64,000 nt of DNA from an uncultured Poribacteria bacterium. Lineage in GTDB: Bacteria > Poribacteria > WGA-4E > WGA-3G. Below are positions 2,559 through 36,900 of this stretch, piece after piece. The DNA is taken from NCBI GenBank assembly GCA_951828385.1, contig OX639973.1:2305561-2369560 (forward strand), in the 5' to 3' direction. The notes under the pieces are model-generated. The model did no database searches and was not told where the DNA came from. It saw nothing but the letters and a program-made list of their open reading frames with translations. The position numbers and the translations under genes were made by a program. How positions within the stretch are numbered: position 1 is the stretch's first letter; each line of letters opens with the position of its first letter.

Positions 2559-4016
2559 TTAACCTTTTACGACTCCGATGGGACGGAGGCGCGCAACACG
2601 CCGCGAAAGTCCAGCTTTGTCAACGACACGGACGACCTCATCAACATCCTTGTAAGCCTCGGGGACCTCCTCTTGGAGGGTGCGTCTGCCTTCCGCGCGG
2701 ACGAAGATGCCTTGTGCTTCCAAATCCTTTTGGATAGAACGTCCCTTCGTTAAGGCGATCGCTTTCCGGCGTGAGAGGACTCTCCCGGCACCGTGGCAGG
2801 TGGTGCCCCATGTCTCCGCCATCGCGCCCGGATTGCCGACCAGCACGTAAGAAGCGGTTCCCATATCGCCGGGAATCAGCACGGGTTGCCCGACTTTCTG
2901 GTATTTGTCGGGAATCTCTGGATGTCCTGCTGGGAACGCACGGGTCGCGCCTTTGCGGTGGATAAAGAGTTCACGTTCTTTGCCGTCAACGGTGTGTTTC
3001 TCGAATTTTCCGATGTTATGTGCGACGTCGTAGACGAGTTCCAAACCGAGCTCGGTTTCTGTGGTATCAAAAAACTGCATGAAGGTCTGGCGGACGAGGT
3101 GCATAATACATTGCCGATTGTTCCACGCATAATTGGCACTACACGCCATCGCGGTGATGTAGTCCTGCCCCTCCGGTGAGTTAATCGGTGCGGAGGCGAG
3201 CTGCCGGTCAGGGAGTTTGATACCGTATCTTTCGGCGACTTTGACCCAGCTTTTGACGTGTTCATCGCAAATTTGATAACCGAAGCCGCGTGAACCGGTA
3301 TGAATCATGACGCAGATATTGCCTTCGCTTAAGCCCATCGCATCGGCGGCTTCTCGGTAGAAAATACGATCAACGGCTTGGACTTCAAGGAAATGGTTGC
3401 CGGAGCCGAGGGTGCCGAGTTGGTTTTTACCGCGTTCTAATGCGCGTTGGCTCGCAGCGTCGGCGTTGGCGTTTTGGAGGAAACCGGTGGCTTCGGTAAA
3501 GTTAAGGTCGTTTGGGTGTCCATATTCCCGATCAATTGACCACTGCGCGCCTTTTTCCAGCATCCGCCGCTCTTCTTGGACAGTGAGCCGAATGTTGCCG
3601 CTGGAGCCGACACCGCACGGGACATTCTCGAACAACTTGCCGATGAGTGCTTTCCGTTTTCCGTCAAGCTGCGTGACATCAAGGTTCGTCCGGATGAGGC
3701 GGACCCCGCAATTGATGTCATATCCGATGCCACCGGGAGAGACCACGCCGTCTGCTTTCGGATCCGTCGCAGCGACACCGCCGATGACGAAGCCATATCC
3801 CCAGTGTAAATCGGGCATTGCGAGCGAGTGTTTGACGATACCGGGGAGGTGTGCGACGTTTGCGACCTGTTGCAACGCCTCGCCGCTATTTGTCTGTTCG
3901 AGGAGTTTCTCGTTGGCATAGACGATGCCGTCAACGCGCATGCCTTTCATGTAACTTTTCGGGATACGCCAGCGGTATTCGTCGATTTTCTGGAGTGTTA
4001 TGTTTTGTTGTGCCAT
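2559..4016 (-). CDS. rtcB: RNA-splicing ligase RtcB
   Basis: Cytoplasmic GTP- and Mn2+-dependent ligase that joins RNA 2',3'-cyclic-phosphate or 3'-phosphate ends to 5'-OH ends, in tRNA splicing or RNA repair. At 485 aa it is in the normal size range. Visible signatures are AMPDLHWGYGFVIGG, the metal site GGIGYDINCGVR (Asp100, Cys103), GSGNHFLEVQ, HTGSRGFGYQ and TCHGAGRVLSR, whose His near residue 406 is the expected guanylylation site. The first Met fits the family's usual N-terminus, although the Shine-Dalgarno is weak. It lies 105 bp downstream of the selenoprotein-like thioredoxin gene on the same strand, with a heptamer element between them. No archease gene is nearby. Confidence 0.97.
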   Translation of the reverse strand: MAQQNITLQKIDEYRWRIPKSYMKGMRVDGIVYANEKLLEQTNSGEALQQVANVAHLPGIVKHSLAMPDLHWGYGFVIGGVAATDPKADGVVSPGGIGYDINCGVRLIRTNLDVTQLDGKRKALIGKLFENVPCGVGSSGNIRLTVQEERRMLEKGAQWSIDREYGHPNDLNFTEATGFLQNANADAASQRALERGKNQLGTLGSGNHFLEVQAVDRIFYREAADAMGLSEGNICVMIHTGSRGFGYQICDEHVKSWVKVAERYGIKLPDRQLASAPINSPEGQDYITAMACSANYAWNNRQCIMHLVRQTFMQFFDTTETELGLELVYDVAHNIGKFEKHTVDGKERELFIHRKGATRAFPAGHPEIPDKYQKVGQPVLIPGDMGTASYVLVGNPGAMAETWGTTCHGAGRVLSRRKAIALTKGRSIQKDLEAQGIFVRAEGRRTLQEEVPEAYKDVDEVVRVVDKAGLSRRVARLRPIGVVKG

Positions 4017-4023
4017 AGTATTG

Positions 4024-4124
4024 GTACGGTTTTCTGCGAAAACCTTTCGGTTAACAGTTGTCAGTACTCAGTTAAGAAATGCTGTGGTTAATCAGATCTC
4101 TCTTTAACTGACAACTGATAACTA
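4024..4124. repeat. Heptamer inverted-repeat spacer element E1
   Basis: Heptamers of TTRTCAG type point inward from both sides. A hairpin GGTTTTC-TGC-GAAAACC sits at 4028-4044. On the minus strand the first heptamer begins directly at the stop codon of the upstream gene (TAG then TTATCAG). Confidence 0.7.
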
Positions 4125-4601
4125 TTTGAGTATATCAAAGATTTTCTGGACAAACTCGGCTTGGGGCATTGCGCCTACGAATTTTCCGACGACTTCACCA
4201 TCACGGAAGACAATGTAAGCCGGAATCCCCTGTCCGCCGTACTCTGCAGCGGTTTCACGGTTTTTATCGATATCCAATTGTGCGGTGATAAAGGTTTCAC
4301 GATGTTCTGATGCAACTGCATCAACGGTCGGTTTCATTGACCGGCAGAAGCCTCACCACTCCGCGCCGAGTTCAAGCACGACGGGTAATTTAGCATCCAA
4401 CACAACGGCTTCAAAGGTCGCATCGGTGACTGTAATCGGTTTCCCATCGGTTGCAATGGGTTCAGAAGATTCTTCGCGGGCGGGTTCTGTGTTAAACGTT
4501 ACGGGGTCTATCTCCTGTTCAACATTTTCACCGCAGCCAGCAGTGTAGATTGCGACTAAACCGATGATCAGTAAAACACACGTTTTAAACAATGTTTTCA
4601 T
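4122..4601 (-). CDS. Membrane-anchored thioredoxin-like protein with in-frame UGA at the catalytic Cys (putative selenoprotein)
   Basis: Likely periplasmic thiol-redox protein. With UGA at 4353-4355 read through, one 159-codon frame results. It has a lipoprotein signal peptide (lipobox YTAGC, Cys near residue 23), a short acidic linker and a thioredoxin domain. The UGA falls between W and GFC, giving W-UGA-G-F-C where the fold has WCxxC; the paralogue at 9804-11081 has WCPFC at the aligned site. Downstream residues (RSMKP, DIDKNRETAAEYGGQGIPAYIVFRDGEVVGKFVGA, quoted in parts: DIDKNRE, GIPAYIVF, VGKFVGA) keep the thioredoxin pattern including cis-Pro. Shine-Dalgarno AAGGAGG precedes ATG at 4601, and a good promoter lies upstream. 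Selenocysteine is inferred from position; simple nonsense mutation is the alternative. Confidence 0.8.
4325..4343 (-). promoter_or_regulatory. Candidate bacterial SECIS hairpin after the UGA
   Basis: Nine bases after the UGA the minus strand forms CGGUC-(9-nt loop)-GACCG, extendable by UGC/GCA across a 5-nt bulge. Bacterial SECIS stem-loops sit about this far downstream within the coding sequence. The loop does not clearly match the E. coli consensus, so this is a positional match only. Confidence 0.4.
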
Positions 4602-4624
4602 GAGGTGCCTCCTTAATATTTAGC

Positions 4625-4680
4625 GGAACATTCTGTTCCACTGTAATTGCTATTATATCACGGTTTGCAGTAGGGTGCAA
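4625..4680 (-). promoter_or_regulatory. Sigma70-type promoter with operator-like palindrome for the thioredoxin gene
   Basis: Minus strand: -35 TTGCAC (4680-4675), a 17-bp spacer, then -10 TATAAT (4657-4652). A perfect inverted repeat GGAACA-TTC-TGTTCC at 4625-4639 lies just after the expected start site, where a repressor would block initiation. Translation starts at 4601. This suggests the thioredoxin can be transcribed separately from the upstream lipoprotein gene. Confidence 0.6.
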
Positions 4681-4752
4681 GGATAGAAGCAGCAGAATGC
4701 GGGGCTATTCAATAAACCGCGCCTACCGAACGCAACAGATGTTTATGTATAC

Positions 4753-5472
4753 TTATTTTTCATAAATATAACTGGCAGCGGTTTCGGGATAGAAGATGAC
4801 AAGGAGTCTGCCGTCCCATGTATACGTGCTGATGTCGGGTGACGTGCTTCCCGTAGGGAACCAATGGATTGTTCCGCTGCTCTCATCAAACGGTTCAATA
4901 AATCTATACGTACCGGTGATGAACTGCGTCGGTGCTTGGACCTCCGCTTCAGGATTCGACTGTATTTCCCGTGTATATGTCGTGGGTGTGAGCCGCAGCG
5001 TACTCGTCTCTGCCACCGGGTCGCCGTTGACCTGCTTGGAGATCAGTGTATAGGTGCCGCTGAAGAATTGCGCAATTTTATAGGGTTTGGAGAAGACCGT
5101 AATAGATGCCATTTTGTGGACATCTTCTTCGCCGCCATCGCGTACGTAGAGATAGACGGTTACGACTTTCGGCGGGACGATCTCCTCCGGTGGCAGTTCG
5201 GGGGCGGTCCACTGGACTTGGGGTCCGGCTTCGCCCGCCAAAGTGCCATCGGATACCTCCCACGTATACCTCAACGGATCGTCTTCCGGGTCAAAGACTC
5301 TGGCTCTAAACTCGACGGTTTCACCGTATTCAACTTCATTCGGGACAGTGAAAGTGGTTATTTTGGGCGGGTCGTTGGTGAGTTCTTCATATTGTGCACA
5401 TCCAGTTAGGATAACGGCTTGGAGGCTGAACAGGATGACCAAACCCATCTGGATTGGCTTAAAGATATTCAT
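4753..5472 (-). CDS. Lipoprotein with Ig/PKD-like domain
   Basis: Exported lipoprotein of 239 aa. The signal peptide ends in lipobox LTGC (Cys near residue 25). Next comes an Ig/PKD-like domain (EVEYGETVEFRARVFDPEDD, YTWEVSDGTL, VTVYLYVRDGG), then a C-terminal beta-rich domain resembling lipocalin-like folds (FSGTYTL, TFTWDGRLL-type pattern). It is a close paralogue of the N-terminal half of the 9804-11081 protein, which carries a thioredoxin domain on the same chain. Here the thioredoxin is a separate gene 151 bp downstream on the same strand, which suggests that the two act together in the cell envelope. Function unknown. Confidence 0.8.
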   Translation of the reverse strand: MNIFKPIQMGLVILFSLQAVILTGCAQYEELTNDPPKITTFTVPNEVEYGETVEFRARVFDPEDDPLRYTWEVSDGTLAGEAGPQVQWTAPELPPEEIVPPKVVTVYLYVRDGGEEDVHKMASITVFSKPYKIAQFFSGTYTLISKQVNGDPVAETSTLRLTPTTYTREIQSNPEAEVQAPTQFITGTYRFIEPFDESSGTIHWFPTGSTSPDISTYTWDGRLLVIFYPETAASYIYEK

Positions 5473-9803: not shown

Positions 9804-11081
9804 CTATTGCAGTGCCTTCAAGATTTGCTGGATAAAGCGTTCTTTAGGCATAGCACCTGCGAACCTTGCGACCTCTGCCCCGTTTCGGAATACAATATAC
9901 GCTGGGATCCCCCTAACTTTATATGCCTCTGTCGTCCGCCGGTTTTCGTCGATATCCAATTTTCCAATGATGAAAGTGTTCCGGTGTTCCAACGCGACCG
10001 ACGCAACAATTGGCTTCATTTGTCTGCAGAAAGGACACCAATCGGCTTCAAATTCAAGCACAACCGGCAATTCAGCATCCAATACCTCGGCATTGAACGT
10101 TGCATCGGTAATGACAACGGGTTTCCCATCGGTATTCACCGGATCCGGGTTAACCTCATCTTCGAGTTCTTCAACGGGTTCGGGATCAATGGGTTCCGGT
10201 TCGACATCTTCTTCAACGGGTTCGGGATCAATGGGTTCCGGTTCGATATCTTCTTCAATGGGTTCGGGATCAATGGGTTCCGGTTCGATATCTTCTTCAA
10301 TGGGTTCGGGATCAATCGGTTCCGGCTCCGCATCATCGGTTTCGACAACTTCGGGGTCCGGGCCTGCACGGTTGTAGATATACTGCGTGGAATCTGCGCG
10401 AAAAACCAAAGCCAAGAAGCGTCCATCCCAAGTATATGTACCTACAGAAGGCCTGGGGTCTCCCTGCGTGAACCAGTGGATTGTCCCGTTGCTTTGGGCA
10501 AACGGCCTGATGAGTTTGTAGGAACCGGTGACAAACTGTTTCAGGGATTGTGCTTCGCCTTCTAAGATCTCCTGGAACTCCTGTGTGAACGTTGTAGGTG
10601 TGAGGCGCAGAGTGCCTGTCACTTGAACAGGGTCGCCGTGAACACTTTTGGAAACAAGCCTATAGGTGCCGCTGAGCACCTCGGCGACTCTGTAGGGTTT
10701 GGAGTAGACGAGGATCGTTGCTGTTTTGGAGGCATCTTTCTCGCTACCGTCTCGGACATAAACATTAACGGTTACGACTTTCGATGGCACCATTTTTTCG
10801 GATGATTCTGGGGCAGTCCACTGAACTTGGGGCCCCGTGTCGTTGGCTAATGTGCCTTCGGAGACATCCCATATATAGGTTAGAGAATCGTCATTCGCAT
10901 CAAAAGCCCTAATTCGGAGTTGAACGGTTTCGCCGTATTCGACCTCCACTGGAACAGTGAGGTTGGTGATTTCAGGTGGATCATTAGTGAATTCCTCGTA
11001 CTGATCGCAACCGCTGAAGATAGCGATCTGAAGCACTAACAGGATGACCACACCTATCTGAACTGGCTTAAAAACATTCAT
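9804..11081 (-). CDS. Lipoprotein-thioredoxin fusion protein (WCPFC)
   Basis: Envelope lipoprotein of 425 aa. The signal peptide has lipobox FSGC. The first ~230 residues are paralogous to the lipoprotein at 4753-5472. An acidic linker of tandem 14-residue units (EPEPIDPEPIEEDI type) follows. The protein ends in a thioredoxin domain with active site WCPFC, followed by DIDENRR and GIPAYIVF. It is the single-chain version of the two adjacent genes at 4122-5472, whose thioredoxin has UGA in place of the first active-site Cys. It likely acts as a tethered periplasmic disulfide oxidoreductase; the client is unknown. Confidence 0.88.
   Translation of the reverse strand: MNVFKPVQIGVVILLVLQIAIFSGCDQYEEFTNDPPEITNLTVPVEVEYGETVQLRIRAFDANDDSLTYIWDVSEGTLANDTGPQVQWTAPESSEKMVPSKVVTVNVYVRDGSEKDASKTATILVYSKPYRVAEVLSGTYRLVSKSVHGDPVQVTGTLRLTPTTFTQEFQEILEGEAQSLKQFVTGSYKLIRPFAQSNGTIHWFTQGDPRPSVGTYTWDGRFLALVFRADSTQYIYNRAGPDPEVVETDDAEPEPIDPEPIEEDIEPEPIDPEPIEEDIEPEPIDPEPVEEDVEPEPIDPEPVEELEDEVNPDPVNTDGKPVVITDATFNAEVLDAELPVVLEFEADWCPFCRQMKPIVASVALEHRNTFIIGKLDIDENRRTTEAYKVRGIPAYIVFRNGAEVARFAGAMPKERFIQQILKALQ
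10150..10325. repeat. 42-bp coding tandem repeat (about four units)
   Basis: Unit of 42 bp encoding 14 acidic, proline-rich residues, nearly identical at DNA level, inside the linker of the lipoprotein-thioredoxin fusion. Unit number is probably variable by slippage. Confidence 0.85.
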
Positions 11082-33958: not shown

Positions 33959-36900
33959 TTACTTCCGGATTAGCATTTTTCGTGTGGATGTGAACTCGCT
34001 TGTGGTGAGGGTGTAAAAATAGACACCACTGGCGACGGGTTCACCGAAGGCATTTTTACCATCCCAATAGGCGGCACGAGTTCGGGTTTGATAGATGCCT
34101 GCTGGTTGATGTCCAAGTGCTAACGTGCGAACCAATTCTCCGTTTATAGCATAGATACGTAGCGTGACTTCAGTAGGTTCGGCGAGTTGATACGGTATCC
34201 AGGTCTCTGGGTTGAACGGGTTCGGGTAGTTTGCTAACAGTGCTGTTTCTTTTGGCATCAACGCTGCCAGCAGCTGCTCCAAGTTTGCGATTGCGCGCTG
34301 GAAGGCAAGGGATCCGTCATTCTGCGTCCGTAAGAGATCCAGCACCTGCTGAAGTGTTTCCGGTGTCAGATGTTCTGGCAACGCAACAAAGGCGGGTGCT
34401 GCAGCGCCCGCTGTTTCACCGAAGTGTGTCGCAACGAGGACGAGGTCTTGGATATTAACTGTCCCGTCCCCATTGACATCAAGGCGCGGGTTCTCAGGCG
34501 AATGGGCACCGAGTGCTGTCGCCACCAAAACCAGATCGATGATATCCGTTTTACCATCTTCGTTGACATCCGATGCAGGTATCGTCGTGGCGGTCTCGGT
34601 TTTTAGGCGGATGCGGAATTCGGGTGAAGTCGTGTGGATTGGTTGGCCGTTGCTATCTCCGGCTTTGAGGTTTCGGAGTCGGACTCGGGTGTTCATCGCT
34701 TTTTTGAGCGTGAAGTTGATTGCGAGAAGCGTCCCGTCTCCGTCTACGCCGCCGCTGGTGAGCCGTGCGGCACTTATCCCTGTAATTCTGCCGGTTGTAT
34801 TGTCGATGGTGCCTCTGCGGAAGTAGGTCTGTCCATTTCCCTGTTTGAGGAAGTTGCCTTCGGTGATACTGTTCGCTTTTAGGACGGCTGGGTCGAAGAG
34901 GATATCTGTCTGCCATCCGGCTAAGTCTTCCATATTTGCGGCGTTGAGACGGATAACGAATGCGGAGTCGGTTTGGAATTCCGTTGTGTCTGAGGTGAGA
35001 GAGAAGCGGGCACCGGGTGAGAGGACAATGTATTCGGCATCTGAAGTGAACCCGAAAAATCCGCTCCAGCCACCACCTCTCTCGTAAACGGCGACCAGTA
35101 GGACGTTTTTTCCTGTTTTTAGGGTGACAGGGGCCCGATCTTGATAATTGGAACTCCCTCGATCTACAGGGTTGTAGTGAACTAATTCGCCGTTGAGCCA
35201 GACTTTCACGGCATCGTCGCTGCCGATAAGCATCGTTGTCTGTTGTTCTCTGGGTGATTCCAAGGCAAGAGACCCGTAAGCGACGTGGTTATCTATATCA
35301 CCTGTCCCCAAGCCAATGGCGTTTGCCATGGCGTTAAGGTTATCACCGCCCGTGGTTGCCAATTCTCCGATTGTCCAGACTTTGCTCCCGACAGGATTGC
35401 CTTCGGTTGTGCCGTCCGTAGCGACCTTAAGTTCGGTTACTTCACCGTCACTGGCGCGTGCGAGGAAATCCACGCCGGATCGTGCAGCACTTGCCCCGCC
35501 ATTATTGCCAGTGGAGACGATCATCCATAACCACGGTCCCGTTATTTTCGGCGTGCTGCTGTCTATAAAAGTTCCTGGATTATCTTGCGCGTGTATCGTT
35601 GTTCCGGGTAAACTCTCCAGGGGCGAGAAATCGGATATAGCGTTGTTCCTTAGGTTCACTTCCTTTAGGTTTGTTAATCCTGAGAGCGGAGAGATGTCGG
35701 CAATCTGATTGTTATCCAACCGTAGTTCAATCAACTTTTTTAGATTTGAGAGGGACGATATATCTGATATCAAGTTTCCTTCCAGATTAAGTTCTTTGAG
35801 CTGCGTCAGTTCTGCAAGTCCGGAGATGTCCGAGATATTTGTACCCGTGATTTCTAAACGTCTGAGTGTTTTTATGCCTGTTAGCGAGGGCAGTGTTGAT
35901 ATGGTAGGATCATTACCGAATTCTATCCATTGGAGTATCCGTAAGTTTGCTAAGGGTGAGAAATCGGTGATACGTGTATTCCGTGCGGCTATGCCTTCGA
36001 GGCTAATCAGTCCGGCGAGGGGAGACACATTGGTTACTGGGTTCCCTGAGATACCGATGCCGTTCAACTTCTTGAGGTTTTGGAGGGGGGTTAGGTCGGT
36101 TATCTGGTTTTCTTCGAGCCCCATCCATTCTACGTTGAAGTGTCTTGCAAGCGGTGCAATATCGGTTATCTGATTTCCACGGAGTTTGATGTTATTCAAC
36201 TTCGTAAGGTTTGTGAGTGGGGTTAGGTCGCTGATGGCGTTGTGCCGGAATTCTATGCGTTCGAGGTTGATGGCGTATTCCAGGCCTGTTAGGTCTTGGA
36301 TGCCGTTTTCATCTGCCTCAATCCGATTTAATCTTTCCATATCTTCTGGGGTAATAGCGGCCCCATTTTCTTTTCCGAGCAGCCGTTCAATCACACTTCT
36401 CAAATTCGGGTCAGGTATACGGACGGTTCCGCTCGGTGTGGGTTGAACCGGATGGACAGTGCTCGGTGTAGTCGTAACTGGGGTGTCCGGTGAATTTAGA
36501 GCCGTGATGATCTCCGAGAATTGTTGTGTCCACGCGTCCCGTTTCACATTACTACCGCTTGTCAGTCCTGTGAGCCCGAGGTTTTGGAGGCTTGACTTCA
36601 CACGGATTTGTGAGAGGAAGTTCTCGGTTTGTAAGCCGACGGCTGCTGCTGCGTCGGGTGCCTCTAAAGCGTCTTGGAACGCTTCATGGAAACGGTGAAC
36701 GGGTTCAATGCCGCCGAACACGCCGCCGGTTTTCTCTAATGCGATTTTGTAGCGTGCGGTATCCTCGGCAAGCAGCGCGTCCATCCGGTCTTGTGTTACA
36801 TACAGCAGCAAAGCGTAGTTTTTATCAAAGGGTGGGTTCGCCGTCTGCTCAATAGCGGTCCGGACTTGGTCCGTAAACGTTTTCATGCCTTCAGTGTGGC

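Follow-up and report, generated by a model that had tools for sequence, protein, structure and literature searches.

Translation of the minus-strand gene at 4122-4601 either ends at the UGA that interrupts its frame or continues through it, and the locus raises the question of which. The window (the whole stretch of 64,000 nucleotides that was analyzed) is part of the genome of a Candidatus Poribacteria species, assembled as a single 6.66-Mb contig. Read from 4601 to 4122, the frame translates as MKTLFKTCVLLIIGLVAIYTAGCGENVEQ...LELGAEW-UGA-GFCRSMKP...FDILK*, with the UGA at 4355-4353 as its only in-frame stop and UAG as its terminal stop. On re-reading, we thus saw again the single UGA in an otherwise open frame that the initial annotation had described and had read as a probable selenocysteine (Sec). 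The codon specifies residue 83, between Trp and Gly-Phe-Cys. We favor the same reading, at a probability of about 0.95 on sequence evidence: the product of the gene is very probably a selenoprotein, namely a thioredoxin held in the envelope by a lipid anchor, with Sec inserted at UGA-83 to give a Trp-Sec-Gly-Phe-Cys active site. Four findings carry this reading, namely genes for SelA, SelB, SelC, and SelD in the genome, conservation of the UGA in relatives, selection on the coding sequence that follows it, and an RNA hairpin that is likewise conserved. The features of the gene itself are:

4122-4601, minus strand: lipoprotein thioredoxin gene, predicted product of 159 amino acids with Sec-83 (frame reading, PF00085, orthologue alignment, fold prediction and comparison).
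4353-4355, minus strand: UGA codon, probably read as Sec, at the first (nucleophilic) position of W-U-G-F-C (frame reading, alignment, homologues).
4608-4613, minus strand: Shine-Dalgarno-like AGGAGG 5' of the ATG (direct reading).

The predicted 159-residue product has a hydrophobic N-terminus/putative signal peptide, a candidate lipobox cysteine (Cys-23), an acidic linker, and a thioredoxin domain at about residues 53-159, and it scores 79.0 bits against PF00085 (Pfam gathering score 23.5). The lipobox-like T-A-G-C-G near its N-terminus has Thr at position -3 in this copy rather than the usual Leu, Val, or Ile; Cys-23 and its flanking glycines (G-C-G, residues 22-24) are invariant across 14 aligned orthologues. 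Of the features first called intact, the ribosome site was seen again as the Shine-Dalgarno-like AGGAGG, but the promoter was not confirmed: when 3900-4900 was scanned with the consensus, sigma-70-like sites numbered 0, versus 1.3 expected. The predicted fold, modelled with Cys replacing Sec, is that of a thioredoxin (domain pLDDT mostly 82-96), with residue 83 just ahead of the active-site helix that starts at residue 84, and its closest match is E. coli thioredoxin (2TRX; TM-score 0.93 by target length, 36% identity).

First, the UGA is conserved. The best matches to the 159-residue protein in 72 related genomes were 15 genes with 54-86% identity, each containing exactly one TGA. In the genus, 16 genomes yielded 17 close relatives of the lipoprotein type (this gene included), and all 17 have UGA as the first catalytic codon, in W-U-x-x-C; the codon is retained in related species that were assembled independently. 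Scanning the retrieved loci with a profile recovered 85 UGA-thioredoxin domains, every one with UGA at the first catalytic position; 19 are of the lipoprotein type (the 17 close relatives, again counting this gene, and two more distant ones), and 32 and 34 fall in two groups of secreted dockerin-thioredoxin proteins. That 85 related domains share UGA at exactly this residue strengthens the original argument that a stop at the catalytic cysteine is hard to explain by random decay, and no homologue had a stop elsewhere: each contains a single UGA, which falls on the first catalytic cysteine. Public relatives are all named Candidatus Poribacteria; outside this group the matches are ordinary thioredoxins only. 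A more distant lipoprotein-like UGA thioredoxin, with WUGAC, occurs in two relatives (L101, G018:C33:44700-45023; L100, G019:C99:18322-18645), and in another relative the lipoprotein UGA thioredoxin is present as two tandem copies (L046, G027:C540:10049-10964).

Family members with an ordinary cysteine are found close by, and the neighborhood of the gene is shared among relatives:

9804-11081, minus strand: Cys-type paralogue with a lipoprotein domain, an acidic repeat linker, and a WCPFC thioredoxin, lacking the hairpin described below (translation, alignment, tree).
4753-5472, minus strand: upstream lipoprotein gene with a PKD-like domain (neighborhood reading).
2559-4016, minus strand: rtcB (RNA ligase), the downstream neighbor (neighborhood comparison).

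The paralogue at 9804-11081 reads as EADWCPFCRQMKP and has WCPFC at the site of the UGA, as noted before. The product of 4753-5472 resembles the N-terminal part of this Cys-type fusion. Among relatives with contigs long enough to show it, nearly all have rtcB after the UGA thioredoxin, and in several relatives the Cys-type paralogue lies in the same neighborhood. In a tree computed after masking of the catalytic position, the 17 Sec genes of the lipoprotein type (support 96) stand beside the Cys-type fusion paralogues, their sister clade (joint support 94), and one dockerin Sec clade stands beside Cys forms of another genus (support 99), this dockerin-type clade having UGA in genus g1 and Cys in genus g2. 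These placements indicate that Sec and Cys alternate within one family, the Cys/UGA alternation among homologues that had been proposed as a check. The lipoprotein selenoprotein and the thioredoxin portion of the Cys-type fusion at 9804-11081 probably have a recent common ancestor.

Second, the sequence downstream of the UGA is constrained as a coding sequence. In pairwise comparisons among the lipoprotein-type genes, dN/dS was 0.241 on the 5' side of the UGA and 0.243 on the 3' side, with a downstream dS of about 1. Purifying selection of equal strength on both sides indicates that the tail is translated; such selection would be lost in a pseudogene or in a tail that is not translated. The same result weighs on the alternative that survives best, namely that termination is programmed, with the UGA mainly yielding an 82-residue anchored stub and readthrough serving as a selenium-dependent switch. 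Because Sec insertion is as a rule incomplete, part of the lipoprotein should be made in truncated form, and the presence of a Cys-type paralogue in the same neighborhood would also fit such a switch. Selection on the downstream part is as strong as on the upstream part, however, which argues that the full protein matters, and nothing points to a function of the stub on its own. We therefore regard programmed termination as improbable.

Third, the genome encodes the machinery for Sec insertion. A search for selA, selB, selC, and selD, which had been suggested as a check, found all four: selA (523.8 bits); selB (646 amino acids, 355 bits), directly upstream of tRNA-Sec on the same strand; selC, the tRNA-Sec gene, with anticodon UCA (76.4 bits); and selD (362.6 bits), which has one in-frame UGA of its own inside the KCAGUASK motif, at the SelD Sec site. 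SelD often carries Sec at this motif, and UxxK is listed in a review (PMC13188914). The selB and tRNA-Sec locus (L030:2506-8295, minus strand) is flanked by signal peptidase I-like genes and a lipoyl-synthase-like gene; selA and selD are located elsewhere in the genome. Across the genus, tRNA-Sec scored above the cut-off in most genomes and went undetected in four members (G024, G033, G034, and G030), among which G024 and G033 have selB at a contig edge and G034 is only 83% complete.

Typing of the tRNA genes and the use of UGA as a terminator bear on a second alternative, that UGA has been reassigned to Trp or Cys in this lineage and that selenium plays no part. In its favor, the UGA aligns with Cys and adjoins a Trp codon. 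Against it, the anticodon UCA was found in tRNA-Sec only, with Cys tRNA having GCA only and Trp tRNA having CCA only, and selA, selB, and selD are all in the genome. In addition, UGA still terminates mnmE, which ends FCVGK-UGA upstream of another UGA thioredoxin; C-x-G-K is the usual C-terminal end of MnmE. Several family relatives apparently also end on UGA, about 78-85 codons past the Sec UGA. Restriction of UCA to tRNA-Sec, together with UGA still ending genes, argues that there is no global reassignment; reading of UGA by a Cys- or Trp-tRNA is ruled out by the typing of the tRNAs found, and we consider this alternative very unlikely. Least credible of all is a pseudogene or assembly error, with the UGA arising lately by nonsense mutation, or through a miscalled base, in a gene that used to encode Cys. 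A single in-frame stop does commonly mark a decaying gene, and an intact Cys paralogue is located a short distance away; but every one of the 17 genes of the lipoprotein type has the UGA, as do another 68 related domains in separate assemblies, and dN/dS is equal on its two sides, which together rule this out.

Finally, decoding of UGA-83 as Sec would call for a SECIS element, and two candidates lie downstream of the codon:

4308-4323, minus strand: conserved hairpin UGAUGC-AGUU-GCAUCA, the best SECIS candidate (pairing, covariation, synonymous conservation, folding).
4325-4343, minus strand: 5-bp stem-loop CGGUC...GACCG of the initial annotation (folding present here, pairing in relatives).

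The 4308-4323 hairpin has a 6-bp stem (6-7 bp), an AGUU loop with G at loop position 2, and lies 32-47 nt past the UGA, with 35 nt from the UGA to the loop. Among related genes it is 96% paired, with two compensated pairs (A-U to C-G and U-A to G-C) and covariation that exceeds column shuffles. Among 84 windows, synonymous conservation peaks at codons 11-16 past the UGA (0.94, against a mean of 0.66); the same codons score 0.59 in Cys paralogues, and the hairpin formed in none of 10 Cys paralogues. When synonymous codons were resampled, 0 of 2000 runs reached the observed pairing. The published bacterial SECIS model has a loop of 3-9 nt, a stem of 4-16 bp, a G in the first two loop positions, and a spacing of 16-37 nt (PMC13188914); the hairpin falls within it for all four properties, its 35-nt spacing being near the upper limit of 37. 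Its folding energy is borderline, at -7.1 kcal/mol alone and -7.9 kcal/mol with neighboring bases (-17.5 kcal/mol for the 60-mer), against a published limit of -7.5 (PMC13188914). In the isolated 60-mer, the fold with this hairpin lies 0.5 kcal/mol above the minimum-energy fold; when the first six bases of the 60-mer are unavailable, as they would be if masked by a ribosome stopped at the UGA, the best fold includes it.

The stem-loop at 4325-4343, first put forward as the SECIS because it begins 9 nt past the UGA, is present in this sequence, but across 18 distinct related sequences only 72% of cells pair and covariation does not exceed shuffles. Given its lack of conservation in orthologues we reject it as the SECIS, and it is probably not the recognized element; the conserved hairpin is instead that at 4308-4323. 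The identity of the SECIS hairpin is the main correction to the first reading. The long dockerin group has a conserved hairpin of its own with the same AGUU loop, located 12 nt closer to the UGA; one of its pairs covaries strongly, and synonymous conservation is 0.99. selD has a hairpin with a GGG loop. In the L101 and L100 genes, the AGUU hairpin is altered yet still paired.

From established biology, SelB would bring Sec-tRNA to a UGA that is accompanied by the hairpin. Export across the inner membrane would be directed by the signal peptide and lipobox, with anchoring via Cys-23. Sec-83 would then act as the nucleophile that attacks a disulfide, and Cys-86 would resolve the selenenylsulfide. 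The role is most likely that of a periplasmic disulfide reductase or isomerase. A single DsbD is encoded in the genome; it contains a CxxC thioredoxin domain itself and is a plausible donor that perhaps supplies the electrons.

Other UGA thioredoxins and possible partners occur in the genome. Two tandem genes for secreted dockerin-thioredoxins, one with Ig-like repeats (L029:5392-7695, plus strand; L015:1237-1842, plus strand), have one UGA each, at the catalytic Cys, and most members of the genus have comparable pairs. A fourth UGA thioredoxin-like gene, 3' of mnmE (L172:1354-2295, plus strand), has the motif YTDWUGAC, a signal peptide, and a TPR-like C-terminal part. The genome has 13 cohesin matches, one of them close to selA, and within the window a cohesin-domain match lies at 34679-34990 (minus strand) in a long open frame; extracellular dockerin-cohesin pairing is thus possible. 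Tentatively, and with the odds against it, these proteins might form a selenium-based thiol redox system of the Poribacteria envelope and extracellular space, an adaptation to life in marine sponges in which lipid-anchored UxxC thioredoxins work alongside secreted dockerin-thioredoxins docked on cohesin-bearing surface proteins. The genomes of sponge symbionts are reported to be enriched in SelA and SelB (PMC5649159), and the UGA thioredoxins are candidate products that fit this enrichment. An uncultured sponge-associated lineage would thus maintain several thioredoxins that are selenoproteins and bear export signals, and standard annotation would call every one of their genes truncated. Linked Sec and Cys paralogues in one neighborhood, with and without the hairpin, also offer a clean natural comparison for working out the requirements of a SECIS and the reasons for retaining Sec.

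How does the predicted protein compare with known systems? It shares with E. coli TrxA (2TRX) the fold, the Trp ahead of the motif, and the cis-Pro loop; it differs in having Sec for Cys-32, in having Glu for the buried Asp (by alignment with a TrxA-like paralogue), and in being predicted to be exported and anchored, whereas TrxA is cytoplasmic. With the thiol:disulfide interchange protein (PF13098, UxxC) and TlpA/redoxin-type selenoproteins it shares a UxxC oxidoreductase site and a thioredoxin-like fold, but it scores 79 bits against PF00085 versus 35 against PF13098, and no TlpA, ResA, or DsbE model matched it at cut-off. The NCBIfam selenoprotein models (PDO_seleno_TRX, TsoB, HUIPC thioredoxin-like) show weak thioredoxin-domain similarity, with scores well short of the curated cut-offs, and this Poribacteria family is therefore covered by none of the curated selenoprotein models. 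The literature searched, which lacked most subscription journals, yielded no report of Poribacteria selenoproteins or of dockerin-thioredoxin selenoproteins. Sec thioredoxins (PF00085, UxxC) are a known family (PMC13188914, PMC1088965, PMC2398784), and the Poribacteria protein shares with them (PMC13188914, Table 1) the thioredoxin domain, Sec for the nucleophilic Cys of CxxC, a SECIS-like hairpin inside the coding region, and Cys homologues. It differs in its predicted lipid anchor and acidic linker, in forming a distinct clade, and in having a candidate SECIS hairpin whose spacing is close to the permitted maximum. By the features tested, the predicted protein belongs to this known family, and the dockerin-thioredoxin fusions are the more unusual part of the finding.
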